Below are positions 5,081 through 29,757 of a stretch of 64,000 nt of DNA, one piece after another (positions within the stretch are counted from its first letter, which is position 1; each line of letters begins with the position of its first letter). Origin of the DNA: an uncultured Alphaproteobacteria bacterium (GTDB lineage Bacteria; Pseudomonadota; Alphaproteobacteria; Rs-D84); the NCBI GenBank assembly GCA_944389535.1, contig CALXMS010000006.1:1-64000 (forward strand). The letters are read 5' to 3'. Position numbers and translations under genes: made by a program. The notes below the pieces were generated by a model. That model was not told the origin of the DNA and searched no databases. It saw nothing but the letters and a program-made list of their open reading frames with translations.

Positions 5081-5104
5081 AAACCGCCAGTATTGGCGGT
5101 TTTA
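5081..5104. terminator. Bidirectional terminator between tspO-like and ftsB-like genes
   Basis: AAAACCGCCA and TGGCGGTTTT form a 10-base-pair stem with loop GTAT, placed between two convergent genes. The stem runs up to and slightly into the end of the minus-strand gene. Confidence 0.75.
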
Positions 5105-11755: not shown

Positions 11756-12184
11756 CTATTTATAATTTTCTGCCGCATGCCGTGCAAGTTCATCACAACG
11801 TTCGTTCATTTCTTGACCTGCATGCCCCTTTACCCATACCCACTTTATATTTTTTTGCTGTGATAATTCGTCTAACTGTTGCCACAATTCTTTGTTTTTT
11901 ACGGGTTTCTTTTCCGCATTGCGCCAATTGTTATTTTTCCATTGACGCACCCATTTTTCCATACCATTTTTTACGTATTGACTGTCCGTATGAATTTCAA
12001 TTTCGTCATGTTTTTTCGCGGCTGATAAGGCTTTGATTACAGCGGTTAACTCCATCCGATTATTTGTAGTGGTTGATTCCCCACCGCTTCGTTCTGCGAC
12101 ATCTTTCCCATTTGTTGCTATGAAAGCCCACCCCCCCGGACCGGGATTTCCTAAACAACTGCCATCAGTCCAAATTTTTAGCAT
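11756..12184 (-). CDS. rnhA: Ribonuclease HI
   Basis: The 142-residue enzyme cuts the RNA strand of RNA-DNA hybrids, removing primers and R-loops. The catalytic acidic residues are visible: Asp in IWTDGSCLGNPGPGG (residue 7), Glu in NNRMELTAV (about 45), Asp in HTDSQYV (about 67) and Asp near the end in NERCDELA. Both the basic handle region (WVRQWKNNNWRN) and the KGHAG loop are intact. It is divergent from the transketolase gene, with 35 bases between the start codons. Confidence 0.96.
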   Translation of the reverse strand: MLKIWTDGSCLGNPGPGGWAFIATNGKDVAERSGGESTTTNNRMELTAVIKALSAAKKHDEIEIHTDSQYVKNGMEKWVRQWKNNNWRNAEKKPVKNKELWQQLDELSQQKNIKWVWVKGHAGQEMNERCDELARHAAENYK

Positions 12185-12205
12185 TTTTTCAAACTCGTTT
12201 TGTGA

Positions 12206-12211
12206 TATAAT
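12206..12211 (+). promoter_or_regulatory. -10 box of a probably leaderless tkt transcript
   Basis: TATAAT ends 8 bases before the tkt start codon and no ribosome site intervenes. The -35 region is only a T-rich stretch. The overlapping minus-strand sequence could serve the divergent rnhA gene. Confidence 0.5.
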
Positions 12212-12219
12212 ATCATAAA

Positions 12220-14004
12220 ATGAGATTTGATGCCAAACAATTAAAAGAAATGTCTAGGTCAGTGCGTGCGCATGCGCTGGATTCTTTACGTGGTGCAGGA
12301 TCTGGACACGTTGGTATAGTGTTGGGTGCCGCTGATATAATTACCACTGTTTATGCAAATTTTTTACGGCGTGGGCGTGATAAATTCGTTCTGTCTGCCG
12401 GACATGGCAGCGCTTTGCTTTATGCGGTATTAAAGCTGGCTGGTTATAAAATAGGTGATTTAGGCACGTTTAGAAAATTTGGGGGATTACCAGGTCATCC
12501 AGAATTGGGTGTTGATGGTGTCTCGGCAACAACAGGACCGTTGGGACAGGGTATAGGTAATGCGGTTGGTATGGCACTGGCAGAAAAAATACGTGGAACA
12601 GATGGTGTTGTATATTGTTTATGCAGTGACGGAGATTTGATGGAAGGGGTTTCGTCCGAATCGGTTACGTTTGCAGGACGATATCAGTTGGATAATTTGG
12701 TGTTAATCTGGGATGATAATGGCGTTAGTATTGACGGGGCGGCACTTACAGATGTAAGCATGTCAGAACGTATGCGTGCGGCCGGTTGGAACGTTATATC
12801 AATTCCAGGCAATGACTTTAATAAAATTAATCGTGCTTTACAAAAGGCAAGTGGTGCCGGTGTGCCGACATTTATTGCGGCAAATACCGTAATAGGTGAG
12901 GGGTCGAGTCTTTCTGGAACTTCGGCTGCACATGGGTTCGCATTAAGTGATTCGGAACTTATGCTATTGGTAGAAAAAAATATTTCACCAGAAGGCGACG
13001 ATTTATGGGTAACTGTTGCTAATGAGGCAAATGCGAAATACTCTTTGAATATACCAGATATAAAATTAACTGACGTTAAGATACCGAAATATGACAAAGA
13101 TATTTCTACGCGTGAATTATCTGGTATATACTTACAGTCGTTAATTGAAAGTGGTGCGGGTTTAATTGGTGGCAGTGCAGATTTAGGATCAAGCACGAAT
13201 GTAAAAACGAAGTATTCTATCGATATTCTTCCGCCAAAGTTCAAGGGGAATTATATAAATTATGGTGTCCGAGAACATGCAATGGGGGCGATAATGAACG
13301 GATTGGCGGCTTCTGGATTGCGGCCATACGGTTCTACTTTTTTAGCCTTTAGTGATTATATGCGACCAGCGATTCGCTTGGCGGCATTATCCGGGTTACC
13401 TGTAATTTATATTTTTACTCATGATAGCATAGCTGTCGGTACAGACGGTCCAACGCATCAACCCATAGAACAGCTGCCTTCTTTGCGGTTAATTCCGAAT
13501 TTAAATGTGTATAGGCCTTGTAACAGTGATGAGGTTGCATATGCATGGCAATCGGCAATTGCGAATACCGTATACCCGTCTGCGATTGTTTTATCGCGTC
13601 AGAAATTTAAGCAAATCGCGACGCCTAAGGATGCAAAAATTAATCGCGGTGGGTATATCATTTATCCTGCAACTGCAAAGCGTGTACGCGTTACTATAAT
13701 TGCAACAGGGGCGGAAGTTCCTCTGGCTGTATCTATAGCACAAAAAATCGGCAATGCGGTTCAGGTCGTAAGTATGCCGTCTGTGGCGGATTTTCGTCAT
13801 CAAGATGATAAGTATAAAAATAAAATTTTAGCTGGTTTTGTTGTGGCTATAGAGGCTGCAGCATCTTCTCCGTGGTTTGAATTTGCAGACGCGGTTGTTG
13901 GAATAGATTCTTTCGGTGTGTCTGGACCAGGAGATGAGGTATATAAATATTTTGGATTTGACACAGACGTAATTGTGCGCGATATTTTAAAAAAGTTAAA
14001 ATAA
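12220..14004 (+). CDS. tkt: Transketolase
   Basis: The 594-residue thiamine-diphosphate enzyme moves two-carbon units between sugar phosphates in the non-oxidative pentose phosphate pathway. Visible are GSGHVG (substrate His), FVLSAGHGSALLYAVL, TGPLGQGIGNAVGMALAEK, the ThDP/Mg motif SDGDLMEGVSSE with a later DDNG, the catalytic Glu region YGVREHAMGAIMNGLA, and HDSIAVGTDGPTHQPIEQL. It is about 60-70 residues shorter than typical bacterial transketolases, with trimmed linkers in the first half, but no key motif is missing. It probably works with RpiB (26321-25875). A YgjP-like metallopeptidase follows after 11 bases. Confidence 0.9.
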   Translation: MRFDAKQLKEMSRSVRAHALDSLRGAGSGHVGIVLGAADIITTVYANFLRRGRDKFVLSAGHGSALLYAVLKLAGYKIGDLGTFRKFGGLPGHPELGVDGVSATTGPLGQGIGNAVGMALAEKIRGTDGVVYCLCSDGDLMEGVSSESVTFAGRYQLDNLVLIWDDNGVSIDGAALTDVSMSERMRAAGWNVISIPGNDFNKINRALQKASGAGVPTFIAANTVIGEGSSLSGTSAAHGFALSDSELMLLVEKNISPEGDDLWVTVANEANAKYSLNIPDIKLTDVKIPKYDKDISTRELSGIYLQSLIESGAGLIGGSADLGSSTNVKTKYSIDILPPKFKGNYINYGVREHAMGAIMNGLAASGLRPYGSTFLAFSDYMRPAIRLAALSGLPVIYIFTHDSIAVGTDGPTHQPIEQLPSLRLIPNLNVYRPCNSDEVAYAWQSAIANTVYPSAIVLSRQKFKQIATPKDAKINRGGYIIYPATAKRVRVTIIATGAEVPLAVSIAQKIGNAVQVVSMPSVADFRHQDDKYKNKILAGFVVAIEAAASSPWFEFADAVVGIDSFGVSGPGDEVYKYFGFDTDVIVRDILKKLK

Positions 14005-14015
14005 ATTTATTATAA

Positions 14016-14723
14016 ATGTCAGAGAACGAATTCTGCTTATCATCAGGTGAAAGAATACCGATTATTATTACTACGCGTCGTGGTTTGCGGAATATAACTT
14101 TGCGTCCGAAAACAAGACCTTCACGAGAAATTCATATATCAAAACCATGGTTAACGCCAACGTCTGCCGCGCTTCTTTTTTTGGAACAAAAAAGGAAATG
14201 GTGTGAACGTATATTTAATAATGCACCGCAAAAAACTACATTGAAACCAAACGATGAAATAGAGTTTTTAGGGAATTCAGTGCTTTTATTGCATGACGAA
14301 AGTCGTCGTGGGAACGAGTTTATTAAAAAGACAGATGGACCATGTGTTTTAATTGTAGGCGGGACAATAGATATGTTTGAAAGGCGCATTAAAGATTTTA
14401 TACGATCTCAATTTTTAATATCTGTAAAACAAATGATACATGCGGTTCCACGTGAATTTTGGCCGCGTAGAATCGCTGTGCGTGACACTTCTTCACGATG
14501 GGGCAGTTGTTCTACAAGCGGTACGATGTCTTTTTCTTGGCGCTTAGCATTTGCGCCACAGGATGTAATGAGATATGTGGTTATGCACGAATTGGCTCAT
14601 CAGAAACATATGGATCATTCGCCGGCGTTTTGGAAACAGGTGTCGGAATTATACGGTTTTGGGGTGGAACGGGCAAAACGTTGGCTAAATGTACACGGTG
14701 CAGAATTACATAAATTTTTTTAA
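14016..14723 (+). CDS. YgjP/DUF45 family metallopeptidase-like protein
   Basis: The 235-residue protein has an N-terminal beta-rich half and a C-terminal zinc-peptidase half: RWGSCSTSGTMSFSWRLAFA followed by VVMHELAHQKHMDHSPAFW (about residues 190-208), which holds the HExxH zinc motif and the later third ligand His. This is the DUF45/SprT-like pattern of E. coli YgjP. In many alphaproteobacteria the family is chromosomal and conserved, but its substrate is unknown. It follows tkt by 11 bases and probably shares its transcript. There is no signal peptide, so it is cytoplasmic. Confidence 0.8.
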   Translation: MSENEFCLSSGERIPIIITTRRGLRNITLRPKTRPSREIHISKPWLTPTSAALLFLEQKRKWCERIFNNAPQKTTLKPNDEIEFLGNSVLLLHDESRRGNEFIKKTDGPCVLIVGGTIDMFERRIKDFIRSQFLISVKQMIHAVPREFWPRRIAVRDTSSRWGSCSTSGTMSFSWRLAFAPQDVMRYVVMHELAHQKHMDHSPAFWKQVSELYGFGVERAKRWLNVHGAELHKFF

Positions 14724-14912
14724 TAAAACTTGAAAACCAAAGTTTTTTCAGTATGATATGAAACATGAAGTTTGAAAATAATTTTTTTACAGCTTTTCAC
14801 CATTTTCATCATAGCGACTGTTTATAGCGCTTTGCGCTTTATTATGATATAATATTCAACACTAATAAGTAATGTCGTATTAAAACTATACGGCAAACAA
14901 CAGGATAAAAAA

Positions 14913-16205
14913 ATGGAACTTAAACCGACTAAAACTTTATCAGGCTTTATAGAATTGCAACCGGTACAACAGCGGTGTTTTGATTATTGCGCGACCCGTA
15001 TGCAAAACGTATTAAAAACGGCGGGCTTTACACATCTAGATTTGCCGGCAATTGAACGGGCAGAGGTTTTAACTGATAAAGATAATTGGGATGAAATTGA
15101 AACCCAGATGTTTTTGTTTCAAAAAGGCGATACAAAAATGGGGCTTCGTTATGATGGTACCGTTGGTTTGTCTCGTTATGTCGCTGGGAATCTGAATAAT
15201 TTAACCTTTCCGTTCAGAGCATATCAATTTGCGCGTAATTATCGCGGTGAGCGGCCGCAACGGGGGCGTTATCGCGAGTTCTATCAGATGGACTTGGATA
15301 TTATGGGAATTGATTCGTTGTCGGAAAATTATGATGCAGAAATTGTTGCTACGTTAGCAAAAGCATATGAATCCATATCTGAATTTATCGGACCCATAAA
15401 TATTCGTGTTGGTAACCGTAGATTTTGGAACGCGATGTTTGATAATTTGGGGTTGGATAAAGAACAAAGTAGAGCAGCATTTATTTTAATTGATAAGAAA
15501 GATAAAATTTCTGATTTCTATGACGGCTTAGTTGAAACAATAGGTAAAGCAGCCGCGACGGAAATAAATAAAGTTTTTTCAGACGGTTATAAAGCGTTCA
15601 AAGGTAAATCAAAAGAGTTAGACGCCGCAATAAAAGAAATGGACTCTTTCATAGTTTTACTTAATTCTATGGGAATAAAAAACGCTAAGATTGATTTAGG
15701 TATTATGCGAGGTCATGCATATTATACCGGTATTGTTTTTGAATTTTTCTTAGATAAATATCCAGAATTGGGGGCGATTGGTGGTGGTGGAAGATATGAA
15801 GATCTTGCATCTAAATTCTCCAAAACGAAAATCATTGGTGTTGGGGCCGCAGTTGGTTTTTCTCGTCTTATGGTTGCGTTGTTGGACGAAGGAAAAATAA
15901 ATTTATCTACGTTTGAAAATCCGATTCGTGCGGCTGTTCTTGTTATGGGACAAGATCAAGTACCTTATGCGATGAAAGCGCTTGCAAAATTAAGAGACAA
16001 AAACATTGTCGCTGTGCCTTATTTAGACGTGAATAAAAAGTTTAAAAATCAAATAGAATTTGCTGATAAAATTAACGCAGATTACAGCCTGATAATAGGT
16101 GATTCTGAAAGAGAAGCGGGCGTCCTTACGGTAAAAGATATGAAATCCGGGGAACAGCAGACTTTAAAACTGGCTGATGCGATTAAATTATTAAAGTTGA
16201 GATAA
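14913..16205 (+). CDS. hisS: Histidyl-tRNA synthetase
   Basis: The 430-residue class II synthetase attaches His to tRNA-His. Motif 2 region YRGERPQRGRYREFYQMD with LDIMG, the ATP-binding LRYDGTVGLSRYV, the histidine-binding LGIMRGHAYYTGIVFE and motif 3-like GGGGRYEDLASKF are visible, followed by a C-terminal anticodon-binding domain (AAVLVMGQDQVPYAMKALAK onward). It starts with a long AT-rich leader containing TATAAT near 14845 and GGATAAAAAA before the ATG. The prfA gene follows after 5 bases, so the two probably form an operon. Confidence 0.93.
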   Translation: MELKPTKTLSGFIELQPVQQRCFDYCATRMQNVLKTAGFTHLDLPAIERAEVLTDKDNWDEIETQMFLFQKGDTKMGLRYDGTVGLSRYVAGNLNNLTFPFRAYQFARNYRGERPQRGRYREFYQMDLDIMGIDSLSENYDAEIVATLAKAYESISEFIGPINIRVGNRRFWNAMFDNLGLDKEQSRAAFILIDKKDKISDFYDGLVETIGKAAATEINKVFSDGYKAFKGKSKELDAAIKEMDSFIVLLNSMGIKNAKIDLGIMRGHAYYTGIVFEFFLDKYPELGAIGGGGRYEDLASKFSKTKIIGVGAAVGFSRLMVALLDEGKINLSTFENPIRAAVLVMGQDQVPYAMKALAKLRDKNIVAVPYLDVNKKFKNQIEFADKINADYSLIIGDSEREAGVLTVKDMKSGEQQTLKLADAIKLLKLR

Positions 16206-16210
16206 AAGAT

Positions 16211-17275
16211 ATGGTAATAGACGATAAATTAAAAGATATTCAGATCAGAGCTGCAGAAATTGAATCTCAGATGAATTCGGGCGATGTTGACGGTGCTGAA
16301 TTAACAAAGTTGTCAAAAGAATACTCCCGGTTGTCTGAATTGTTACCTTTGATATCGGAATATTTTCAGACGAAGAAGGGCATAGAAGACGCTAATGAAA
16401 TGCTGCATGACGAAGAGTTAAAATCAATTGCGTCGGAACAACTGATGGAATTAAACCATAAATTACCTGAAATAGAAAAAAAATTGCAGATTGCGCTTTT
16501 GCCGCGTGACGAGGCAGATGACAATGGTGTTATTATGGAAATTCGTGCGGGGGTCGGCGGCGAGGAATCTGCACTATTTGCCGGTGATTTATATAACCAA
16601 TATAAATCTTACGCATTACGTAACGGGTGGAAAGTAGATGTTATCGAAGAAAATGCTACGTCATTGCATGGATATAAAGAAATTATATTTAAAATAGATG
16701 GGGCAGGGGCATATGGCAGAATGAAGTTCGAATCTGGCATTCATCGGGTTCAGCGTGTACCAGAAACCGAAGCTGGTGGCAGAATTCATACCAGCGCAGC
16801 ATCTGTTGCGGTTATGCCAGAAGCAAAAGATATTGATGTTGTCATAGATGATAAGGATATTCGAATAGATGTGTTTCGGGCGTCCGGGGCAGGTGGTCAG
16901 CACGTTAATAAGACAGACAGTGCGGTGCGAATCACGCATTTTCCAACAGGAATTGTCGTTACATGTCAAAATGAACGCAGCCAATTTCAGAACAAAGCGG
17001 CCGCAATGGATGTATTGCGTTCAAAATTATATGAAATGCAGCGCGAAGCGCAGGTAAACGCAAGTAATGCGTCTCGAAAAACCATGGTTGGTTCTGGTGA
17101 TCGCAGCGAAAAAATCAGAACGTATAATTTTCCAGAACAGCGCGTTACAGACCATCGCATAAAATTAACTTTGTATAAGTTAGACGATATCCTTGCCGGC
17201 GGTCCTGCGTTGGATGAAATGATTGATGCGCTGATTGCTGCCGATCAATTGGCACGATTGGCCAATATGGATTAA
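16211..17275 (+). CDS. prfA: Peptide chain release factor 1
   Basis: The 354-residue protein ends translation at UAA and UAG. The GGQ motif that triggers peptide release is in RASGAGGQHVNKTDSAVRI (about residues 225-243). The conserved PETEAGGRIHTSAASVAVMP lies just before, and the N-terminal coiled-coil domain and C-terminal PALDEMIDALIAADQLARLA are present. A codon-recognition tripeptide region is in the expected domain, and the overall length and lack of a programmed frameshift site argue for RF1 over RF2. The usual downstream partner prmC (the GGQ methyltransferase) is absent here; a structured leader for a secreted protein begins instead. Confidence 0.93.
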   Translation: MVIDDKLKDIQIRAAEIESQMNSGDVDGAELTKLSKEYSRLSELLPLISEYFQTKKGIEDANEMLHDEELKSIASEQLMELNHKLPEIEKKLQIALLPRDEADDNGVIMEIRAGVGGEESALFAGDLYNQYKSYALRNGWKVDVIEENATSLHGYKEIIFKIDGAGAYGRMKFESGIHRVQRVPETEAGGRIHTSAASVAVMPEAKDIDVVIDDKDIRIDVFRASGAGGQHVNKTDSAVRITHFPTGIVVTCQNERSQFQNKAAAMDVLRSKLYEMQREAQVNASNASRKTMVGSGDRSEKIRTYNFPEQRVTDHRIKLTLYKLDDILAGGPALDEMIDALIAADQLARLANMD

Positions 17276-17297
17276 AAAGTTTCTTATTTTTTTGGTA

Positions 17298-17326
17298 TTG
17301 CATAAGCTTTTTTCTGTTGATATACT
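17298..17326 (+). promoter_or_regulatory. Promoter of leader RNA 1
   Basis: TTGCAT and TATACT are spaced 17 bases apart. The matching position upstream of leader 2 has TTGTAT-17-TATAAT. In both cases the first shared hairpin of the RNA begins within about 2-3 bases of the expected transcript start. Confidence 0.6.
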
Positions 17327-17333
17327 TACTTTT

Positions 17334-17588
17334 GTCAGCAGGTATTCTGCTGATGGGGTGTGGAAACCCTTTATACGCGTCTTAAAACAAAGCTAAGGTC
17401 GCGGACCGTTTTATGGCCGCTTTAAATTTGGTTTTAGACGAAAAATAAAACTCCTGATTTGTATAAGGGTCAGGAGGGTCGTTAAATATAAAAATAAACG
17501 ACACAATTCGTATAATTGTTTCCAACCTCCTGACCACCATTATTTCTGGTGGTTTTTTGTTCGTATACAAAAAATGGAGGAAGAAACT
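17334..17588 (+). promoter_or_regulatory. Structured 5' leader RNA with attenuator-like switch (copy 1)
   Basis: The 255-base leader precedes a cysteine-rich secreted protein gene and is homologous to the leader at 25812-25576 (minus strand). Shared elements in order: hairpin P1 CAGCAG/CTGCTG (17336-17352); P2 GGGGT/ACCCT (17355-17370); a closing helix P3 CGTCT/AGACG (17378/17440) enclosing P4 GCGG-CC/GGCCGC; P5 CTCCTGA/TCAGGAG (17451-17476); P7 ACAATT/AATTGT (17503-17519); and a terminator ACCACC/GGTGGT plus T6 (17533-17558). GGTCAGGAGG (17468-17477) can instead pair perfectly with CCTCCTGACC (17526-17535), which takes the terminator's 5' arm. So P5, the long-range helix and the terminator exclude one another, as in termination-controlled riboswitches or attenuators. 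No known riboswitch class was recognised. The ribosome site TGGAGG follows at 17575. Confidence 0.7.
17533..17558 (+). terminator. Terminator-like hairpin inside leader 1
   Basis: ACCACC and GGTGGT pair around a 9-base loop and run into six T. It lies 31 bases before the start codon, so it would stop transcription before the gene unless the upstream antiterminator helix forms. Confidence 0.7.
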
Positions 17589-18170
17589 ATGACAAACAAA
17601 ATATGCGCGCATATGATATTATGCGCCATTGTGTCTATGGCGCCTTTAAATACATTCGGGGCAAGTGGTACCAGATGTCAGACCACTACAATGACGTGCA
17701 CTAAGGACTTGGTCCACTACACTGCAAGCTGCAGCGATACATATGGCAGCGGTCAAAAAACTTGCATAGATAGTAACGAAGGTCGTAGTTGTATGGTAAT
17801 AACAGGAGGGGTCTGCCCTGAGACAATACAGAATAACACTTGTGCTAACGTATGTGAATGTTATGAATATGGCGAATGTGTTTATACAAGTTGTAAATCT
17901 GGGTATTATATGCCGACAAACTCTCAGGGTGATTGTGTCGCTTGTCCGGCAAATGCCACATGTTCCGGCGGAACTGCACTTTTTTCTTGTAATGCAGGAT
18001 ATTATCGAAACGGTACGTCGTGTTCTCGTTGTCCTTCTTCTGGCGGCGTATACGGTACATCTGCCGCGGGAAGCACAAAAATAACGGATTGCTATTTACC
18101 GGCGTCTACAACTGGTTCCGATTCTACCGGAACGTTTACATATACTTCTAATTGTTATTATGTACAATAA
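17589..18170 (+). CDS. Cysteine-rich secreted protein with shared C-terminal module
   Basis: The 193-residue protein has a signal peptide (KICAHMILCAIVSMAPLNTFGA) and then about 24 cysteines. It contains two GYY repeats of the style CKSGYYMPTNSQGDCVACP and CNAGYYRNGTSCSRCP, resembling EGF/TNFR-like or GCC2/GCC3 disulfide repeats. The C-terminus, GTSAAGSTKITDCYLPAST, an SD-TGT-TYTSNCYY pattern and a short tail, is shared with the protein at 25575-24898. ATG 17589 has TGGAGG 8 bases before it; the frame's earlier ATG overlaps that site. It is exported and probably disulfide-bonded in the periplasm or at the surface. The function is unknown. Expression is likely controlled by the structured leader just upstream. 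Confidence 0.75.
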   Translation: MTNKICAHMILCAIVSMAPLNTFGASGTRCQTTTMTCTKDLVHYTASCSDTYGSGQKTCIDSNEGRSCMVITGGVCPETIQNNTCANVCECYEYGECVYTSCKSGYYMPTNSQGDCVACPANATCSGGTALFSCNAGYYRNGTSCSRCPSSGGVYGTSAAGSTKITDCYLPASTTGSDSTGTFTYTSNCYYVQ

Positions 18171-18172
18171 AA

Positions 18173-18199
18173 AAGGGCTTATGTTTTTTATAAGCCCTT
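18173..18199. terminator. Bidirectional terminator between two convergent secreted-protein genes
   Basis: AAGGGCTTAT and ATAAGCCCTT form a 10-base-pair stem around a T-rich loop, with A and T runs on either side. Confidence 0.8.
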
Positions 18200-18203
18200 G
18201 ATT

Positions 18204-19334
18204 TTAGAATATATATTTCATATTAAAACCACCACTCCAACCGGTTCGTCCACCGTCACGCCTGTTCAAATTTAAGGCCACATTAAATCGGTCAATGGAT
18301 TTTTCAATTCCTAGGCCATATTCTGCATAATCTTGACTGTTTAAATCATCAACTCGTATACCATTTACAATGATGTTTCCATCATTTTGTCCCATTACAA
18401 AAGCGTATTTAAAATTTAAAGAGGCAAACCAACCATTCCCAATGCATTTAATTGCGCGAAATTTCGGAGTAATTTCAAATAGATTTATGTTTTTATTGGA
18501 AATTACATCATCTGAAGATGAAATATAATTTGCAGACCCTATCCATGTATAACCAGTATATATACCAGGCTGTAATGTGAATGTTTTGTCTAGTTCTATG
18601 TTGTATGTAGCATTTAATGCCGCGCCAGCCCAAGCATTTGTGAATTCATCATTACCGTATATATTTTCTGCGTTATTGTATAGTGCACCAGCATCAGCAA
18701 TAAATGATAAATTAAAATTATGAACGTTATATCCCGTATAAATACCGAAATAACCGCCATTTTGATTTATATCAATGAAATCGTTTTGTTGATTTCCACC
18801 AACAAAACCGCCGAATACACCCCATTTTGATATGCCTTTTTTATGTTGGTGATCGCTGCCGGTTAGACCGAACATTATTAAATCTGTATCGGTATCCAGA
18901 TCGTCTATTCCTTCAAATTTAACATCGTCACCAAAATGCTGCCATGTAAGCCACAAGTTATTTACTTCTGGACGAGAATATTTGTCGTATTCAGCGTCTT
19001 TATCATCGCCACCATTCCGCCCCTTAGTATTTTTATTGTCTTCGTCACCTTCGTCTCTATATTCGCCGTATAATAGTGGTTGACCATACATAAGGGAGTC
19101 CCCATATAAATTTTGCGGCGTGCGTTTTTCATGTTTTACTAATTTGGCGCGTTCGCCAAGTGCCGCCATAGCGGTACCCTCAAAAATTTGCGCAGAATTA
19201 GTAAGAATAGAATGCTGAATAAATGAGATATTATTTGTTGTAAAAAAATTCGCGTAAATGTGCCGTTGATCTGCCAGCGCATTGGAAATAGAAAACAGCA
19301 AGACAAACAAGGTTATTAATGAAATTTTTTTCAT
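18204..19334 (-). CDS. Autotransporter-type outer-membrane beta-barrel protein
   Basis: The 376-residue protein has a signal peptide (ISLITLFVLLFSISNALA). A region of about 110 residues with an acidic, Lys/Asn/Gly-rich linker (about residues 90-120) follows. The rest is a C-terminal barrel of alternating strands (NLWLTWQHFGDDVKF, GGYFGIYTGYNV, TLQPGIYTGYTWIG) ending in Phe (MKYIF), the usual outer-membrane assembly signal. It resembles the barrel domain of autotransporters but has almost no passenger, so it may be a porin-like or adhesin remnant protein. It is convergent with the cysteine-rich secreted gene. The start ATG follows AGGGAGAG-like sequence. Confidence 0.7.
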   Translation of the reverse strand: MKKISLITLFVLLFSISNALADQRHIYANFFTTNNISFIQHSILTNSAQIFEGTAMAALGERAKLVKHEKRTPQNLYGDSLMYGQPLLYGEYRDEGDEDNKNTKGRNGGDDKDAEYDKYSRPEVNNLWLTWQHFGDDVKFEGIDDLDTDTDLIMFGLTGSDHQHKKGISKWGVFGGFVGGNQQNDFIDINQNGGYFGIYTGYNVHNFNLSFIADAGALYNNAENIYGNDEFTNAWAGAALNATYNIELDKTFTLQPGIYTGYTWIGSANYISSSDDVISNKNINLFEITPKFRAIKCIGNGWFASLNFKYAFVMGQNDGNIIVNGIRVDDLNSQDYAEYGLGIEKSIDRFNVALNLNRRDGGRTGWSGGFNMKYIF

Positions 19335-19602
19335 CTCTCTCCCTTTAGATAAGTATTTTTTCTTAATTATATCATATTTTTATCTTATCATAAGTAAAAA
19401 ACAGTGTTATTTAAAAAGCTTTATCTATATAAACCGCCATTTGTCCTGTTAAATCATATGTATTCATACTCAAAAACCTGTTTAATAAATATATGTACTA
19501 ATTAATAAAGTATTTTTATAATGCTATTTAAAATGGAGATTTCAAGAAATGAGATTAATTTTTATTGTTTAAAAGGCTGTTTTAGGGTATTATCAATGAA
19601 AA

Positions 19603-20163
19603 ATGGTTAAAGAAATCGATTTTTTTGTAGAAAAACCAATTGTTATGGTTGGTTTGATGGGGGCAGGGAAAACCAGCGTCGGACGCGCTTTGGCGCGTCG
19701 GTTGGGGATGCCGTTCGTTGACTCGGATAAGGAAATAGAGGCTGCTGCCGGTTGCAGTGTTGTTGATATATTCTCTATGTACGGTGAAGAAGAGTTTCGT
19801 CGTGCCGAACAGCGTGTAATTGCAAGAATCTTTGATACGCCACCTTCATTAAAGGTAATTTCTACAGGAGAGGGCGCTTTTATAACGCCTGTGGTACGCG
19901 AAATGGTATTGGGGCGCGCATTATCCATATGGTTAAAGGCAGATTTAGACTTGTTGGTAAAACGCACTAACTTTCGCGATACCAGACCGCAATTATTACA
20001 CGCCGATAGCCGAAAAATTTTGGCGCAACTGATTGAAGAAAGGTACAATATTTACGCAAAGGCCGATATTACCGTAGAAACCAGTGACGAAAGCCTACGA
20101 AAGACGTTGGATAAAGTTATTGCGGCAATAAAAGAATATAAAAAGGATAAAAAAAATGGCTAA
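19603..20163 (+). CDS. aroK: Shikimate kinase
   Basis: The 186-residue P-loop kinase phosphorylates shikimate on the path to chorismate and aromatic amino acids. Walker A is GLMGAGKTSVGRALA (residues about 17-31), the shikimate-binding DSDKEIE follows, and RDTRPQLL is the lid Arg region. The GGG motif that usually binds shikimate reads STGEGAF here, with Glu in place of the middle Gly. A TATTAT box ends 9 bases before the ATG and no ribosome site is seen, so translation may be leaderless. The mscL gene overlaps its end by 8 bases. aroB, often next in alphaproteobacteria, is missing here. Confidence 0.88.
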   Translation: MVKEIDFFVEKPIVMVGLMGAGKTSVGRALARRLGMPFVDSDKEIEAAAGCSVVDIFSMYGEEEFRRAEQRVIARIFDTPPSLKVISTGEGAFITPVVREMVLGRALSIWLKADLDLLVKRTNFRDTRPQLLHADSRKILAQLIEERYNIYAKADITVETSDESLRKTLDKVIAAIKEYKKDKKNG

Positions 20164-20710
20164 AAACAAGTTCTTTAACGAATTTCGTACTTTTATAGAA
20201 AGAGGCAGCGCCATAGATATGGCAGTAGGTATAATTGTCGGAAGTGTTATGACAAGTATGGTGAATTCGTTAGTAAAAGATGTTATTATGCCACCGATAG
20301 GTATGTTGCTGGGAAATATTGATTTTTCTCAATTTTTTATTGTTTTATCTGGCGGTGAATCAGGGGGTCATTATAATACAATAGCAGAAGCGCAAGCCGC
20401 GGGTGCCGCTACTATGAATATAGGTCTGTTTTTAAATACTGTGGTCAGTTTCATAATTACTATGTTTGCGGTGTTTGTGATGATTAAGATTATGAACAAG
20501 GTTCGCATAAGCAAATCTGTTATAACTCGTGTTTGTCCGTATTGTAAGTCTAAAATAAATGCGGAAGCATCCAAATGTCCAAATTGTTGTTCAAGTGTGA
20601 AACCAGAAATAAAATCTTCAAATGGACAAAGTAATTTGGAAAAAAACATAAAAGAAATAACAAAAATAGCAAAACAAAAAATTAATAAAATCGCACAAAA
20701 AACAAAATAA
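20156..20710 (+). CDS. mscL: Large-conductance mechanosensitive channel with C-terminal zinc ribbon
   Basis: The 184-residue protein forms a pore that opens on membrane tension during osmotic downshock. The N-terminal helix and TM1 (FRTFIERGSAIDMAVGIIVG, residues 9-28) and TM2 (LFLNTVVSFIITMFAVFVM) are typical MscL. The C-terminus is extended: a four-Cys motif CPYCKSKINAEASKCPNC (about 125-142) suggests a zinc ribbon, followed by a Lys-rich tail that is longer than usual. Zinc-ribbon tails are known in some MscL proteins. The start overlaps the end of aroK, implying co-translation. Confidence 0.92.
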   Translation: MAKNKFFNEFRTFIERGSAIDMAVGIIVGSVMTSMVNSLVKDVIMPPIGMLLGNIDFSQFFIVLSGGESGGHYNTIAEAQAAGAATMNIGLFLNTVVSFIITMFAVFVMIKIMNKVRISKSVITRVCPYCKSKINAEASKCPNCCSSVKPEIKSSNGQSNLEKNIKEITKIAKQKINKIAQKTK

Positions 20711-20935
20711 TACTTTTGTTAGATAAAGTAAAAATTTAATATTTAGTTTTTCGAGCTCTTTTTGTATATTTTTTATCAAAAAGGGTTCTTTTTTTGCATA
20801 TAAATGGGTGTGTTTTTCGGCTTTGGCATAGATAAAAAAAGAGGGCGGATGAATAAAATTTTCTGGGTATATAAATTGGCGTTTTTAAGCTGTAATAAAC
20901 TTAGAAAATATTGTTTTTTATGGTATAATGCATCT

Positions 20936-21060
20936 AATAAAACGGTGATGCAGGTAATTTCAAACCAAATTAATTATCCGTGGCGTTTTTGGCCCTGTCA
21001 GGATGTGAAAATAATCATGTTTATTTTTGAACAGGGAGCACCTAAAAAAGACAAATTGTA
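20936..21060 (+). ncRNA. Possible small structured RNA
   Basis: A TATAAT box at 20924-20929 with weak TTAGAA 17 bases upstream would start a transcript near 20936. The segment 20993-21036 folds as CCCTGT/ACAGGG plus an inner GAAAATAA/TTATTTTT helix with loop TCATGT. GGTG near 20944 could close with CACC at 21039-21042. The layout of a long, bulged rod is loosely like 6S RNA, but this is weak. There is no sharp terminator. Confidence 0.2.
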
Positions 21061-21157
21061 AAAGCGCATAATGTATATTATGTATAGTTATAGACATGTC
21101 AATGGCGCGGGGTGTTTGTTTTTGTTGTGTTTGTTTGGTTTTGCTTTTTCGTGTTGT

Positions 21158-21197
21158 TTAGAAATAATTTATACTTTATTAGAAATAATTTTACTTT
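21158..21197. repeat. Imperfect tandem repeat, two units of about 20 bases
   Basis: TTAGAAATAATTTATACTTT (21158-21177) is followed by TTAGAAATAATTTTACTTT (21179-21197), differing by one base of length. It lies in the T-rich gene-poor region. It could be a paired protein-binding site or simple-sequence noise. Confidence 0.5.
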
Positions 21198-21680
21198 GTT
21201 TGATTTATTAAATATATAATGTAACCGATTGATTTTATTTTTATTTTGTGGTTAAAACTTTCTGTGTCTTTTATGTTTTTTTGGGCGATCAAATCATTTG
21301 CCGTTATCTCGTTTGTCTGCCCTGTTCGGTTTTGTGTCAAATAGTAATCCTTTACTTGTGTTTATAGTTATTCAATCGTTTTATAAAAAATAACTATTAT
21401 CTAATTGTTTTTTAATGATATTTAATGTTTTTTATCTTAAATACTGTTTTTTTTGTTGTTGTTAGTATATCGGATTCTTGATTTGTACGTGTGATTTTTC
21501 AGTGTTTTTATGCGGATTTTTTCAAATAATTATGTATATATAAAATTTAAATAAAAAATCTAATTTCAAAATATTACACATATATAATAAAGTTGTTTAT
21601 TAATGTAGTGTTTTTACCGCTTTTGCCCGGGTAAAAATCTCTAATTGATTTTATTAAAAAAGGATATAAAATATCATTTG

Positions 21681-22397
21681 ATGAGATTGGATCAAGAATT
21701 GGTTAGCCGTGGAATTTATCCGACCCGTGCCAAAGCGGTGGCGGCGATTAAATCTGGTCTGGTTAAAGTAAATGATAAGATTGCCCAGAAACCAAGTCAG
21801 CAGGTCGTTGATACTGATACTATGACAGGGGGATCGTTGCCCTATTCTTCTGGTCGTGGTAGTTTAAAGTTAGCACGTGCTTTGGAGGTTTTTAACGTAA
21901 ATCCGTCTGGTTATGTTTGTTTGGATGTCGGGGCCAGTACAGGTGGTTTCACAGAAGTTTTATTAGCACATGGCGCGAAACGTGTAACTGCGGTTGATGT
22001 CGGTACCAATCAATTGATTGATGATTTAAAAAATGATTCCAGGGTTATATCATTAGAACAAACAGATATACGTGATTTAGAACCCATTGAGCCGGTTGAT
22101 TTAATTGTCATTGATGTTTCGTTTCTTTCTCTAACTAATATTATAGAAGCGTTGTTAAAATGGAATGCGCCACAGATAATTGCATTGATTAAACCGCAAT
22201 TTGAGGTTTCTCGTGCGGTTGCGGCTCGGGCTGGTGGGGTTATAAAAAGCGAAATTGAACGCGAAAATGCGGTAAAAAATGTAATTCAAAACTTTGAAAA
22301 AAATGGCTATAATCAATTAGGTATTGTTGAGTCGCCCATAAAAGGTGGTAGCGGCAATATAGAGTACCTTGCATACTTGCGCCGCGCGGCGCAATAG
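21681..22397 (+). CDS. tlyA: TlyA family rRNA 2'-O-methyltransferase
   Basis: The 238-residue protein has an N-terminal S4 RNA-binding domain (RLDQELVSRGIYPTRAKAVA, residues 2-21) and an FtsJ-like methyltransferase domain with the SAM motif CLDVGASTGGFTEVLL (about 81-96) and LIVIDVSFLSL. TlyA proteins methylate ribosomal RNA riboses (C1409 and, in longer forms, C1920). Some are called hemolysin A for historical reasons. ATG 21681 begins the S4 domain exactly; the longer frame from 21645 adds a poorly coding stretch. It usually follows dxs in alphaproteobacteria; here a gene-poor region precedes it. Confidence 0.88.
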   Translation: MRLDQELVSRGIYPTRAKAVAAIKSGLVKVNDKIAQKPSQQVVDTDTMTGGSLPYSSGRGSLKLARALEVFNVNPSGYVCLDVGASTGGFTEVLLAHGAKRVTAVDVGTNQLIDDLKNDSRVISLEQTDIRDLEPIEPVDLIVIDVSFLSLTNIIEALLKWNAPQIIALIKPQFEVSRAVAARAGGVIKSEIERENAVKNVIQNFEKNGYNQLGIVESPIKGGSGNIEYLAYLRRAAQ

Positions 22398-22479
22398 AAT
22401 TCTGAAATGACTTGAATTTATCAAGGTTTATGTATAAAATTTTCTCAGTTTATAATATTTTTAAAATAGGTACTAAAAA

Positions 22480-24876
22480 ATGGCAGATGATATAAAGAAA
22501 ATTCACGATCGTGAAACCAAATGGCAACAACGTTGGATTGAATCCGGTGTATTTACACCGAAAAACGATGGCAGTAAAAAGCCGTTCTATATGTTGGCGG
22601 AATTCCCCTTCCCGTCTGGTGCCGGTTTGCATGGTGGGCATATGTTGAACTATTCTGGCTGTGATGTTATGGCGCGTTTCCGTCGTATGCAGGGTTATGA
22701 TGTTTTGTATCCTATGGGATTTGACTCGTTGGGTATTTCCGCTGAAGCGTTCGCCACAAAAATCGGTAAGCATCCTTCTGTCGTTGTAAAAGATTTGGTA
22801 CAAAAGTTTACGAAAAGTATGATAGAAATGGGTTGGTCCATTGATTTGAAATCTCAAATAGCAACTTCTGACCCTGAATACATAAAGTGGACTCAATGGA
22901 TGTTTATCCAGTTCTTTAAAGCCGGTTTAGCATATAAATCCATGTTGCCGATGAATTGGTGTCCGCACTGTCGTACGACTTTAACAAACGAAGAATTGGA
23001 AGATGGTAAGTGCAATCGTTGTCATGGCCAAGTTGAAATTCGTGAAAAAATGCAGTGGAATCTGGCAATTACAAAATATGCACAGCGTTTACTGGACGAT
23101 TTGAAGTTTGTGGATTATCCAGAACGGGTAAAGCGTGACCAGATAAACTGGATTGGAAAGTCAACTGGTGCTGATGTGGACTTTATGGTGGGTGAAGATA
23201 AGATGACTGTTTATACTACCCGCCCTGATACCATTTTCGGTGTTACCTTCTGTGCCATTGCGCCGGAACATAAGTTATTAGCAAAGTGGTTGGACGAAGG
23301 AAAAATTACAAATGCAGATGAAGTTCGTAATTATATAAAAGAGTCTGCTGCTAAGTCTGAATTTGACCGTACAGATGTTACCAAAGAAAAAACAGGTGTT
23401 AAACTGGGCGGTATAATGGCGAAGAATCCTTATACTGGGGACGAGATACCTGTTTTCGTTGCGGACTATGTATTAGTAAATTATGCACATGGTACGATTA
23501 TGGCGGTGCCTGCGCATGATGAACGCGATTGGGACTTTGCAAAAAAGTTTGGCATTAAAATCATTCCTGTAATTTCTGGGGGCGAACCAGATAAAGTTTG
23601 GGAAGGTGATGGTGAACATATCAATTCCGGGTTTATGGATGGCATGAATAAGGTTGATGCGATTTCCGCAGCGATTAAATATGGCGAAGAACGTGGGTTT
23701 GCATGTCCAAAAACTCGTTTTAGAATGAGTGATTGGGGATTTTCGCGTCAGATGTACTGGGGCGAGCCTATCCCATTAGTGTATTGTGAAAAGTGTGGTT
23801 GGGTGCCAGTACCAGAATCTGAGTTACCGCTGATGCAGCCGTATATGGAAGAATATCAGCCAACAGAAGACGGTGAAAGTCCATTGGCGCGTGCAACGGA
23901 TTGGGTAAATACCACCTGCCCTTGTTGTGGTGGGGCAGCACAGCGCGAGACAGATACTATGCCGCAGTGGGCGGGTTCTTCTTGGTATTATATGAGATAT
24001 TTGGACCCACGTAATGATAAAGAATTCTGTTCTCGCGAACAGATGGAAAAGTGGATGCCAGTAGATCATTATAATGGCGGAAACGAGCATAATACTCGTC
24101 ACTTGATTTATTCGCGTTTCTGGCACAAAGCTTTGTATGATTTAGGTTTTGTAAATACAGTAGAGCCTTATAAGAAAAGAACGACAAATGGTCTGTTAAT
24201 GGGGACCGACGGTAAAAAGATGTCAAAATCCGCTGGTAATGGTTTTCAGGTTGATGAGAAGGTTGCTGAAATTGGTGCTGATGCGGCGCGCACAACAGTT
24301 TTATCTTTGGGGCCATGGGATACAAATGTAAATTGGTCCGAAGGTGCGTTGGCAGGGGTTCAACGTTTCTTAAAGCGCGTTGAAAACATGGCGGATAATT
24401 TAACTGATGAGCCAATGAATGCGGAACAAGAACGTCTGGTTCATCAATTAATCGCTGACGTAACAGAACGCCTAGAAAATATGCGCTTTAATACGGCTAT
24501 TTCGGCGATGATGGAGTTTATAAACGAATTTAGCGGTAAAATGCCCCGCCCTGCTTATGAGATATTGGTTCAAATGTTAAACCCGTTTGCACCACATATG
24601 ACAGAAGAAATCTGGGAAAAACTTGGTCATAAAGAAATGTTAGTATTTCAACCATGGCCAACATATGATGCGGCAAAGTTGGTAAAGGCAAATATGACGA
24701 TAGTCGTTTCTGTAAACGGTAAGCGTGCGGCAGATTTCCAGATCGGTGTTGACGCCACTAACGAAGAACTTACCGCGGCGGCCAAAGCGGCGGCGGCGCG
24801 TAAGTTGGAAAGTGCCGAAATTGTAAAGACGATTATAGTGCCAAATAAGTTAGTGAACTTTGTTGTAAAGAAATAA
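22480..24876 (+). CDS. leuS: Leucyl-tRNA synthetase
   Basis: The 798-residue class I synthetase charges tRNA-Leu. The HIGH-type motif is HGGHM in PFPSGAGLHGGHMLNYSG (about residues 44-61). The zinc-type CPHC/CNRC pair follows at about 165-185, the CP1 editing domain spans about 220-400 (TTRPDTIFGVTF, with MAVPAHDERDWDFAKKF), and KMSKS is in GKKMSKSAGNGFQVD (about 577). The C-terminal anticodon-binding domain ends IIVPNKLVNFVVKK. It is somewhat shorter than E. coli LeuRS and diverged in the HIGH region (LGISAEAFA in place of the usual FGLPAEQYA). tRNA-Leu(CAG) and (TAA) lie at 34642 and 34836. Confidence 0.92.
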   Translation: MADDIKKIHDRETKWQQRWIESGVFTPKNDGSKKPFYMLAEFPFPSGAGLHGGHMLNYSGCDVMARFRRMQGYDVLYPMGFDSLGISAEAFATKIGKHPSVVVKDLVQKFTKSMIEMGWSIDLKSQIATSDPEYIKWTQWMFIQFFKAGLAYKSMLPMNWCPHCRTTLTNEELEDGKCNRCHGQVEIREKMQWNLAITKYAQRLLDDLKFVDYPERVKRDQINWIGKSTGADVDFMVGEDKMTVYTTRPDTIFGVTFCAIAPEHKLLAKWLDEGKITNADEVRNYIKESAAKSEFDRTDVTKEKTGVKLGGIMAKNPYTGDEIPVFVADYVLVNYAHGTIMAVPAHDERDWDFAKKFGIKIIPVISGGEPDKVWEGDGEHINSGFMDGMNKVDAISAAIKYGEERGFACPKTRFRMSDWGFSRQMYWGEPIPLVYCEKCGWVPVPESELPLMQPYMEEYQPTEDGESPLARATDWVNTTCPCCGGAAQRETDTMPQWAGSSWYYMRYLDPRNDKEFCSREQMEKWMPVDHYNGGNEHNTRHLIYSRFWHKALYDLGFVNTVEPYKKRTTNGLLMGTDGKKMSKSAGNGFQVDEKVAEIGADAARTTVLSLGPWDTNVNWSEGALAGVQRFLKRVENMADNLTDEPMNAEQERLVHQLIADVTERLENMRFNTAISAMMEFINEFSGKMPRPAYEILVQMLNPFAPHMTEEIWEKLGHKEMLVFQPWPTYDAAKLVKANMTIVVSVNGKRAADFQIGVDATNEELTAAAKAAAARKLESAEIVKTIIVPNKLVNFVVKK

Positions 24877-24877
24877 A

Positions 24878-24900
24878 AAACGCCCATTTGGGCGTTTTTA
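24878..24900. terminator. Bidirectional terminator between leuS and the second cysteine-rich gene
   Basis: AAAACGCCC and GGGCGTTTT pair around ATTT. The genes on both sides converge on it. Confidence 0.8.
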
Positions 24901-25575
24901 ATTTGTATAGTAGCAATTTGAAGTATATATTCCAGACCCCGTGGCATCTGAAAGTGTACTGTTTGCCGGTATATAACACGATGTAATACTTGTACTGCCT
25001 GCGACCGATGTCCCTGGGGTTACACATTTTTGGCAACCACTGGGGGTGGTTGTGGGTCTGCCATAATAGCCATTGTCACATCTGTATGTTATATTGTTGG
25101 TTGGATAGCAATCATTACAGATAGCAATCGGTTCCGCCTGTTGTTGATATCCTGTATAAATGCTATCCGTCCATACTGCTTGTGGGCATGTTTTTTCGCC
25201 TGGTAAAGGACAATCGGCCCCTTCTGTACCGCATACAGCCCCATATGTTCCCCAATAGCATAACCTGTAAGCACTTTCGTAACCATGAGCGTATAGCCAC
25301 GCCTTTCCTAATGTATCAGCATACCTATCGCATAGTTCTTGATAGACTGTTTGTGCATATGCGCTCGGATATGCGCCTGCCCATGTACATATATTAGATA
25401 TCGCATCCTGTTCAGTGGTTACCGGATTAAAGTATTCAAACTCATCCATTAAAATTTGACAACAAGAACAATAGTCATTGCATTCGTCGCCGAAGGCTCC
25501 GGCCGCATGTACGTTTTTTTGGAAAATTATGAAAAGTGCTGTAAAGCCTAAAACATAATATAAAAATTTTTTCAT
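24898..25575 (-). CDS. Cysteine-rich secreted protein, paralogue sharing C-terminal module and leader
   Basis: The 225-residue protein has a signal peptide (KFLYYVLGFTALFIIFQKNVHA). A helical middle domain rich in Tyr and Cys (CSCCQILMDEFEYF through YRLCYWGTYGAVCG) is not found in the relative at 17589. The shared C-terminal module follows: CDNGYYGRPTTTPSGCQKC, GTSVAGSTSITSCYIPANS and SGIYTSNCYYTN. The two proteins therefore share the C-terminal module and the 5' leader but differ in the N-terminal domain. AGGAG lies 8 bases before the ATG. It is exported and likely disulfide-rich. The function is unknown. Confidence 0.75.
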   Translation of the reverse strand: MKKFLYYVLGFTALFIIFQKNVHAAGAFGDECNDYCSCCQILMDEFEYFNPVTTEQDAISNICTWAGAYPSAYAQTVYQELCDRYADTLGKAWLYAHGYESAYRLCYWGTYGAVCGTEGADCPLPGEKTCPQAVWTDSIYTGYQQQAEPIAICNDCYPTNNITYRCDNGYYGRPTTTPSGCQKCVTPGTSVAGSTSITSCYIPANSTLSDATGSGIYTSNCYYTN

Positions 25576-25812
25576 TGTTCAATCTCCTGTTGTTTTTAAC
25601 AAAAAACCACCAGATAAAATTAATGGTCTGGAGGTTGACTACAATCGTAAGAATTGTGCTGCTTATTCAATATATTCGCAAGCCCTCCTGACCTATAATC
25701 AGGAGTCTTTTTCGTCGTAATTTTAAAAACGGCGCTATTCTTCGCGCCATAAGTATGTATTCCGACGCTTACGTAGAGGTAGTCACACCCCGCCAGCAGA
25801 ATTCCTGCCAAC
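25576..25812 (-). promoter_or_regulatory. Structured 5' leader RNA with attenuator-like switch (copy 2)
   Basis: The 237-base leader of the second cysteine-rich gene aligns along its whole length with leader 1. On the minus strand: P1 TGGCAG/CTGCTG (25810-25794), P2 GGGGT/ACCTC (25791-25776), P3 CGTCG/CGACG (25767/25713) enclosing P4 GGCGC/GCGCC (25748-25731), P5 CTCCTGA/TCAGGAG (25705-25685), P7 ACAAT/ATTGT (25657-25641), and a terminator CC-CCAGA/TCTGG-GG plus T6 (25634-25601). GGTCAGGAGG (25693-25684) can pair with CCTCCAGACC (25634-25625) apart from one A-A mismatch, blocking the terminator. Compared with leader 1, P3 shows a T-A to G-C change and P1 and P2 show changes to G-U pairs, which keep the helices. 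A 64-codon frame spans it but has no proper start. Confidence 0.7.
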
Positions 25813-25818
25813 AAAAAT

Positions 25819-25847
25819 ATTATATAACACTAAATTTATAAATACAA
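25819..25847 (-). promoter_or_regulatory. Promoter of leader RNA 2
   Basis: On the minus strand TTGTAT (25847-25842) and TATAAT (25824-25819) have a 17-base spacer, matching the promoter of leader 1 in spacing and in position relative to the first hairpin. Confidence 0.6.
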
Positions 25848-25856
25848 ATAAAAAAA

Positions 25857-25874
25857 CGCCCTTTCGGGCTTTTT
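25857..25874 (-). terminator. Terminator after rpiB
   Basis: GCCC/GGGC with a TTTC loop (GAAA on the minus strand) is flanked by A/T runs, directly at the end of rpiB and just upstream of the leader 2 promoter. Confidence 0.65.
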
Positions 25875-26321
25875 TTAGGATATTTTTTTTATTCTTCTTA
25901 TTCTGCGCTCTATTGCATCAAACGGGCTTTCAAGAAATTCGCGTGTAATTAAAAAAGATACTTCTATATCTATATCGTCTGCCGCCAATGCTAATACGTT
26001 TATATCATCGTGAAAACGATCGTCACGTGCCTGGTTTGGACGGTCACATCTTGACGCACGAATGTGGCGATAGCGGTTCGCCGCAATTTGCATCCCTGCC
26101 CCAGTACCGCATATAAGAATACCGCGAGATTTTTCGTCGCCATTCATTGCATCCGCTAATGTTTTTGCAACATCAGGAAAATCTACGGGGCTATTAACAT
26201 CGTCTGTACCAAGGTTAACAACGTTATAACCAACTGCGTTTAACATTTCTATTAAATATAGTTTTAACCCTACCCCACGATGATCTGCAGCAATGTATAT
26301 TTTTGTTACTGTTTTATTCAT
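25875..26321 (-). CDS. rpiB: Ribose 5-phosphate isomerase B
   Basis: The 148-residue enzyme interconverts ribose 5-phosphate and ribulose 5-phosphate. Family motifs are IYIAADHRGVGLK at the N-terminus, LGTDDVNSPVDFPD, and ICGTGAGMQIAANRYRHIRA with RDDRFHDDINVLAL further on, which contain the active-site loop. The ATG at 26321 is preferred to the upstream one because AAAGGATAAAAAGA lies before it. It overlaps the end of the bactofilin gene by 8 bases, so it is the last gene of that operon. It would link to the transketolase at 12220. Confidence 0.92.
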   Translation of the reverse strand: MNKTVTKIYIAADHRGVGLKLYLIEMLNAVGYNVVNLGTDDVNSPVDFPDVAKTLADAMNGDEKSRGILICGTGAGMQIAANRYRHIRASRCDRPNQARDDRFHDDINVLALAADDIDIEVSFLITREFLESPFDAIERRIRRIKKIS

Positions 26322-26667: not shown

Positions 26668-26671
26668 GTTT

Positions 26672-28629: not shown

Positions 28630-28667
28630 AGCTATATAATAATTCATCAAAACGAAAAGGCAAGTGT

Positions 28668-29675: not shown

Positions 29676-29757
29676 TTGGTTATATTTATTTAATACCATT
29701 TTAAACTGGTATAATGTATCATTTCAGGCGAAATAAAAGAAAAATATAGGCCTAGAT

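Follow-up and report, generated by a model that had tools for sequence, protein, structure and literature searches.

A leader RNA family of secreted-protein genes in Candidatus Enterousia and its likely kinship to phage antisense switches

Introduction

Two genes for cysteine-rich secreted proteins lie on opposite strands of the 64,000-nucleotide stretch of DNA analysed here (the window), each preceded by a long structured leader. What kind of RNA do these leaders encode, and on what does it act? An initial annotation regarded them as a new class of cis-regulatory RNA that controls secreted disulfide-rich proteins.

Two homologous leaders with a closed multi-branch fold

The leaders at 17334-17588 (+, copy A) and 25812-25576 (-, copy B) are homologous over their full length, with 181 identities in 224 aligned positions. 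Their global alignment scores 84.5 compared to -8.0 +/- 5.6 for dinucleotide shuffles (maximum 7.5, n=300), and their flanks do not align (scores 5 and -2). All strings quoted in the initial annotation were found in both copies, as were a 17-base promoter spacing, read from the sequence, and a terminator-like hairpin ahead of the ribosome-binding site (RBS). Both leaders are predicted to fold far more stably than shuffled sequences (z -6.7 for copy A and -5.0 for copy B). Their parts are listed in Table 1.

Table 1. Parts of the two leaders and their genes in the window
Feature	Position	Strand	Remarks
Promoter, copy A	17298..17326	+	-35 TTGCAT, 17-base spacer, -10 TATACT; from the sequence
5' hairpin P1, copy A	17334..17354	+	Transcription probably starts at its first G; in 111 sequences, the helix is 99.0% paired
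Strand A, copy A (GGGGUGUGGAAACCCUUUAUACG)	17355..17377	+	Counterpart of C4 a1/b1; pairs with strand B
P3, copy A	17378..17440	+	Variable hairpin between A and core; CGUC/GACG base 96% paired
P4 hairpin, copy A	17451..17476	+	CTCCTGA/TCAGGAG; 98.2% paired
C4/sRNA-Xcc1-like core, copy A	17468..17535	+	Outer stem GGUCAGGAGG/CCUCCUGACC and two hairpins; core stem covariation
Strand B, copy A (CACAAUUC-GUAUA-AUUGUUUCCAACCUCC)	17502..17530	+	Antisense strand; complementary to A and, family-wide, to the RBS of the own gene
Terminator-like hairpin and T6, copy A	17533..17558	+	ACCACC..GGTGGT; 3-base overlap with outer core stem
Strand C, copy A	17575..17591	+	SD TGGAGG..GAAAC..ATG; complementary to strand B
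Regulated gene, copy A	17589..18170	+	Cysteine-rich secreted protein; ORF
Promoter, copy B	25819..25847	-	TTGTAT, 17 bases, TATAAT; from the sequence
P1, copy B	25792..25812	-	Family helix P1
Strand A, copy B	25768..25791	-	Family A-B pairing and sequence
P3, copy B	25713..25767	-	Fold and sequence
P4, copy B	25685..25705	-	Family P4 helix and sequence
C4/sRNA-Xcc1-like core, copy B	25625..25693	-	Core stem; R3 27.9 bits at 25596-25692
Strand B, copy B	25630..25658	-	Family A-B pairing and sequence
Terminator-like hairpin and T6, copy B	25601..25635	-	ACCTCCAGACC common to terminator and core stem
Strand C, copy B (AGGAGATTGAACAATG)	25573..25588	-	Complementary to strand B UCAACCUCC and AUUGU; by eye
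Regulated gene, copy B	24898..25575	-	Cysteine-rich secreted protein; ORF, no Pfam match

The anatomy of five hairpins proposed initially is incomplete: The local hairpins exist, but two long-range helices were not listed, P2b (UGGAAAC/GUUUCCA in copy A, UGACUAC/GUAGUCA in copy B) and Pb (UAUACG/CGUAUA and CGUAAG/CUUACG, respectively). Both helices are swapped on both sides between the copies, i.e. they covary completely. This means that the leader is a closed multi-branch domain and not a row of hairpins. The closed fold comprises P1, the long-range helices P2a, P2b and Pb between strand A on the 5' side and strand B on the 3' side, and the hairpins P3, P4 and P5.

Across 111 distinct family sequences, 96.3% of the cells in the closed A-B fold are paired, compared to 70.3% with shuffled 3' letters and 34-50% with slid partners. 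The covariation that the initial annotation had asked for was observed, as 42 of 43 pairs display changes on both sides. In the A-B helices, pairing amounts to 99.5% and 99.4%, with 2-5 and 4-6 types of pair at each position; the alignment is biased toward the tested pairs, most of which were contained in its model. However, the covariance model R1 rests on only four copies, and as many as 5 or 6 types of pair are found at single positions of the variable helices P2b and Pb. An alternative core stem, GGNNGGAGG/CCUCCNNCC, is absent from the alignment model and covaries too. Therefore, the 3' strand of P4 has two mutually exclusive partners, P4 and the core stem, and strand B likewise has two. 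In copy A, the alternative partner of the P4 3' strand is 17526-17535, and all three strands covary. Three strings are conserved in the domain (CACAAUUC, GACGAAA and GAAUAU), and P3 beyond its CGUC/GACG base is lost or very short in many members. In 108 family members, the -35 and -10 boxes are found at a fixed distance before a conserved G, which is present in 96% of the sequences and is likely the transcription start.

Could the repeated unit be a DNA element through which gene cassettes are carried or exchanged, such as an integron attC-like site, another recombination site or a mobile hairpin repeat? There are many dispersed copies on both strands, and sRNA-Xcc1, to which the family is related (see below), was first described in an integron cassette, according to PMC12444791 (citing Chen et al. 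2011). However, the cells of helix P1 contain 140 G-U and only 4 A-C combinations on the transcribed strand, which identifies the element as an RNA encoded on this strand. Furthermore, promoter, start site, terminator and start codon occupy fixed places, and the copies are highly divergent in sequence and conserved in pairing. Based on the G-U/A-C asymmetry and the fixed promoter, a DNA element was rejected as highly improbable.

Distribution and downstream genes

In the 0.88-Mb Candidatus Enterousia-type genome to which the window belongs, a DNA search revealed two more close copies, and R1, built from these four copies, detected eight clear copies. Two further matches in the window were discarded: A reverse-strand R1 match at 17441-17553 is a palindromic self-match and not an extra copy, and a match of the subtype-2 model R3 (see below) at 5073-5167 is a stretch that ends in an ordinary terminator after an ORF. 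With R1 and a broader model, R2, the family was found in each of the 34 congeners scanned first, and in the order as a whole in 182 of 190 genomes and 20 of 22 genera. Thus, as anticipated initially, further homologues upstream of genes for cysteine-rich secreted proteins occur throughout the lineage. The exact core pattern was present in assemblies of Candidatus Enterousia scatequi, excrementavium and intestinigallinarum, among many named ones; an exact scan of viral contigs yielded no Enterousia-type copy with that strict pattern. The carrier lineage is thus Candidatus Enterousia of the Alphaproteobacteria. The literature found that names Enterousia consists, judged by titles and abstracts, of gut-microbiome and genome surveys.

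Between 1 and 36 R1 matches were counted per ~0.9-Mb genome. Weak matches of the L053, L054 and L056 type were not regarded as copies. Genome G032 contains about 25 copies of a second subtype (counted from listed places; see below) in addition to 34 R1 matches. Thus, up to about 59 copies occur in a genome of ~1 Mb, each with its own predicted promoter and terminator. To our knowledge, this would rank among the largest RNA-leader regulons for the genome size. Some elements are arranged in tandems of two or three (L087:1510-1927 (-); contigs C39 and C86 of G051, i.e. L078 and L069), and in L087, a Cro/C1-type helix-turn-helix gene follows one of them. In another alphaproteobacterial family (G429), a member at L319:1501-1705 (-) is located ahead of a lipoprotein gene; its core strand ACUCCCC is complementary to the RBS of this gene, GGGGAGUUUGA.

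The start codon is mostly located about 10-35 bases past the element. Using a crude predictor, a signal-like N terminus was assigned to 89% of 91 leader genes and 36% of other genes, and at least 4% cysteine was found in 56% of these 91 and 3% of other products. A strong Shine-Dalgarno (SD) sequence precedes 69% of leader genes compared to 13% of other genes, a comparison that is biased and only supportive, since the leader-gene starts were chosen partly by their SD. In the window (12000-32000) and in L086-L145, SD sequences appear to be rare in most genes and common at leader genes, with the same bias in start choice. The gene product of copy A displays weak similarity to Ephrin_rec_like, EGF and VSP, in all cases below the cut-offs. 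A decayed cysteine-rich paralogue with an in-frame stop adjoins copy D (L003:1800-2460 (-)); no leader was seen in front of it.

The leader could be thought to be merely inherited with one amplified paralogous gene family and to lack a regulatory role of its own, as the four closest copies in the own genome precede genes with a common C-terminal domain. This is contradicted by both the unrelated families encoded downstream and the maintenance of pairing through massive sequence change, so that this explanation is hardly credible. The products comprise cysteine-rich proteins without Pfam match, a trypsin-like protease, OMP-like and repeat proteins as well as helix-turn-helix proteins and unknown cytoplasmic proteins. 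Hence, the assignment to disulfide-rich proteins has to be widened: Genes for cysteine-rich secreted proteins recur, but the predicted targets are secreted proteins in general, plus some cytoplasmic ones.

Kinship to sRNA-Xcc1 and C4

No Rfam family was found at gathering score for the leaders. At a relaxed threshold, the core of copy A yielded a full-length match to sRNA-Xcc1 (RF02221; 36.7 bits over model positions 1-87, E 2e-5). The gathering cut-off is 53 bits and the best score in the order is 50.3. Such sub-cut-off matches were found in 12 of 14 genomes of the order that were searched, and family members score between 26 and 50 bits. Both alignment and covariation support the presence of the sRNA-Xcc1 core fold in the family, an outer stem enclosing two hairpins followed by ACC. 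Among about 105 members, 65 have GG at the 5' end of the core and 50 have ACC after the stem. These are sequence prerequisites for a maturation by RNase P, which in C4-type systems yields an RNA of ~77 nt.

True sRNA-Xcc1 loci were detected in 62 of 398 Pseudomonadota genomes sampled, 39 of them over the cut-off. Their flanks display a 5' strand A, the core with strand B, and then a repeat of A at the RBS (strand C). The genes downstream encode Bro-N, KilA-N, P22_AR_N, Rha and SymE proteins. R1 matches an sRNA-Xcc1/Bro-N locus over its full length (E 4.9e-6), and R2 finds a P22_AR_N locus exactly at the sRNA-Xcc1 match (E 1.5e-4). At L147:379-742 (+), a tmRNA gene is located about 760 bases from an sRNA-Xcc1 element and its Bro-N antirepressor gene; this neighbourhood is possibly a prophage attachment site.

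Sub-threshold sRNA-Xcc1 matches in Enterousia led to a second, more phage-like subtype with a core of ~90 bases that is closer to sRNA-Xcc1 and has its own terminator. In Enterousia congeners, subtype 2 (L327-L348, e.g. L332, L336 and L338) is located upstream of other secreted, often cysteine-rich genes. Its model, R3, recognizes the window copies (37.3 bits for copy A, 27.9 for copy B), other subtype-1 copies and phage-type loci (up to 38.4 bits). Subtype 2 thus bridges the Enterousia leaders and sRNA-Xcc1.

The C4 family (RF01695) was searched for in 14 genomes at E<=0.1 without a match; controls yielded none either, though the model does find phage P1. The lack of C4 matches in these genomes points to kinship to the sRNA-Xcc1 branch. 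With no C4 match and sRNA-Xcc1 scores below the cut-off, the leaders are formally members of neither family by sequence. The C4-type architecture is nonetheless recognizable: An upstream target site (a1b1) is found in strand A, where P2b and Pb covary and are 99% paired, and a downstream one (a2b2) at the RBS of the next gene in both subtypes. The phage antirepressor operon as target was found at sRNA-Xcc1 loci elsewhere; in the order, secreted proteins take its place. The phage P1 record has the order a1, b1, C4 RNA, a2, b2, icd, and Rfam assigns C4, c4-a1b1 and a sub-threshold isrK to this locus.

The claim of a new cis-regulatory RNA class was half right. The leader is structured and cis-linked, has a promoter of its own as well as a terminator ahead of the start codon, and is outside the Rfam cut-offs. 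On the other hand, it is kin to known RNAs, as its 3' half scores as sRNA-Xcc1 and its plan is that of phage C4/IsrK switches. Although it is unlisted in Rfam and stands out by its copy number and its targets, the RNA switch appears to be a variant of the phage antisense switches already known.

Strand B complementarity to strand A and to the ribosome-binding site

Strand B (CACAAUUC..AACCUCC) has three possible partners: the 5' strand A, its own core and the downstream RBS, strand C. An earlier test of B against the RBS with a wide target window had yielded p 0.0014 at a median rank of 0.32. The test was repeated with a tighter window, controls for SD class and genome, and a reversed-B control. 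In subtype 1, strand B pairs better with the RBS of its own gene than with permuted RBSs of other leader genes (p<=0.0002), whether the permutation was free or confined to the same SD class, the same genome or both. The reversed-B control was not significant (p=0.15). Complementarity between B and C outside the SD is significant on its own. It should be noted that the B-C complementarity in subtype 1 is significant on average and weak or absent for some genes. For copy A, a duplex of -14.2 kcal/mol is predicted.

In subtype 2, the downstream B-C effect has p 0.0018 and the upstream A-B complementarity p 0.0002. In some members, 9-11 bases next to the start codon or spanning it match perfectly, e.g. 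CAUUUUCAAUU with AAUUGAAAAUG in L332. At sRNA-Xcc1 loci (n=23), B fits both the A and the C of its own locus far better than permuted partners (p 0.0002 each). At L146 and L166 (1501-1588 and similar), sRNA-Xcc1 loci with RBS complementarity are located directly upstream of SymE-family genes. This suggests that the symE/sRNA-Xcc1 pair of the Xanthomonas integron cassette may work by a C4-like antisense mechanism.

These complementarities bear on two other readings. The first is a riboswitch for a metabolite or ion, with the A-B multi-branch domain as aptamer and the core stem as antiterminator that competes with the terminator hairpin. Mutually exclusive pairing that overlaps the terminator and conserved unpaired strings would fit such a riboswitch. 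However, the conserved strings are accounted for by the C4/sRNA-Xcc1 core, the A-B helices are almost freely variable in sequence, and a match of B to each gene's own RBS would be needless for an aptamer. Curated Rfam models of riboswitches and T-boxes yielded no match at gathering score in the window and none at E<=10 in the two leaders. Since neither an Rfam match nor a common metabolic theme among the downstream genes was found, a riboswitch or T-box was rejected, and no evidence for a small-molecule riboswitch emerged; this reading is improbable.

The second reading is a transcription attenuator that acts purely in cis, where terminator and core stem compete, the outcome is set by folding kinetics or a protein, and neither RBS pairing nor trans action is involved. 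Of 101 members, 95% have a U run of at least 4 behind the terminator hairpin, for which the median is -11 kcal/mol, the core stem overlaps the terminator by 2-3 bases, and P4 CI RNA also works through termination (PMC4825925). By contrast, the significant complementarity of B to the own RBS speaks against attenuation alone, and at the loci inspected, sRNA-Xcc1 relatives have B-C complementarity without a terminator between core and gene. Attenuation as the sole mechanism is therefore considered unlikely.

Proposed mechanism

The structure, the A-B and B-C complementarities, the gene context and the homology to sRNA-Xcc1, all read from the DNA, support the following reading: With a probability of roughly 0.75, the leader is a tripartite antisense switch of the same kind as C4, CI, IsrK and sRNA-Xcc1, which probably derives from phages and was amplified and rewired to secreted proteins. 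Pairing of strand B with A would yield the closed multi-branch fold. Within the core, strand B would be part of a C4-like fold with three stems, and RNase P could excise this fold as a small RNA. Pairing of B with C, either in cis or through a released core that acts in trans, would block translation, whereas sequestration of B by A would free the RBS and presumably represent the ON state. Some transcripts would end at the terminator that separates B from C and thus fail to reach the gene, and the core stem may weaken this terminator through its overlap. The predicted stability of the closed A-B fold exceeds that of the core fold by a median of 8.7 kcal/mol, so that core formation may be rare without help from kinetics, cleavage or a trans RNA. 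Transcription rate, trans RNAs, RNase P or a protein may shift the balance between the states. The module was probably taken from phages in the Enterousia order, amplified and attached mainly to genes for secreted proteins.

A tentative extension is that this domesticated phage-immunity RNA is the main secretome regulator of the order, and that dozens of A-B-C modules cross-talk in trans via released B cores or A leaders. If so, one RNA network would set which surface or secreted proteins each cell displays, much as immunity RNAs set lysogeny versus lysis.

The antisense switch would join three RNAs kept apart in databases, sRNA-Xcc1, C4/a1b1 and the unlisted Enterousia leader family, as one kind. 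It predicts how sRNA-Xcc1 acts on symE, for which a 2025 study mentions only a 'divergent mechanism' (PMC12444791). It would also illustrate strikingly how a phage-like immunity RNA can become a regulator of the host secretome, in animal-gut bacteria beyond present genetics. Two Infernal models would allow any laboratory to annotate the switch family.

Comparison with known systems

Like sRNA-Xcc1, the Enterousia leaders have an outer stem GG..CC(ACC), two inner hairpins, an AAUA-rich loop, strand A upstream and strand C at the RBS. In contrast to sRNA-Xcc1, their terminator follows the core instead of being located between A and core, and their targets are secreted proteins and not phage regulators or SymE. 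A literature search of limited coverage yielded no paper that ties sRNA-Xcc1 mechanistically to C4.

As summarised in PMC5320573 and PMC12197685, C4 is processed by RNase P and acts by blocking a ribosome-binding site. With C4 of phages P1/P7 and its sites a1b1 and a2b2 (RF01695, RF03163), the leaders share the order A, core, C, gene, the RBS pairing, and a core of three stems with GG at the 5' end and ACC at the 3' end. They differ in their genes and their many copies, and neither R1 nor R3 detects the P1 locus. Acinetobacter baumannii Group 1 sRNAs are also amplified: 21 C4-like copies, apparently processed at GGW, are reported for one genome in the available text of PMC5320573. However, these RNAs match Rfam C4, and neither a linkage to secreted genes nor an A-B-C plan is described in that text.

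IsrK is part of its own mRNA and acts on it, and P4 CI pairs with seqA and seqC (PMC4825925). In both Gifsy-1 IsrK/STnc1160 and P4 seqA-CI-seqC, A and the B RNA are parts of one transcript, are complementary to each other and to a downstream site, and terminator readthrough is involved (PMC4825925), as proposed here for Enterousia. A match to the isrK family was not seen in Enterousia, and in contrast to IsrK and CI, the terminated RNA of Enterousia subtype 1 would contain both A and B.
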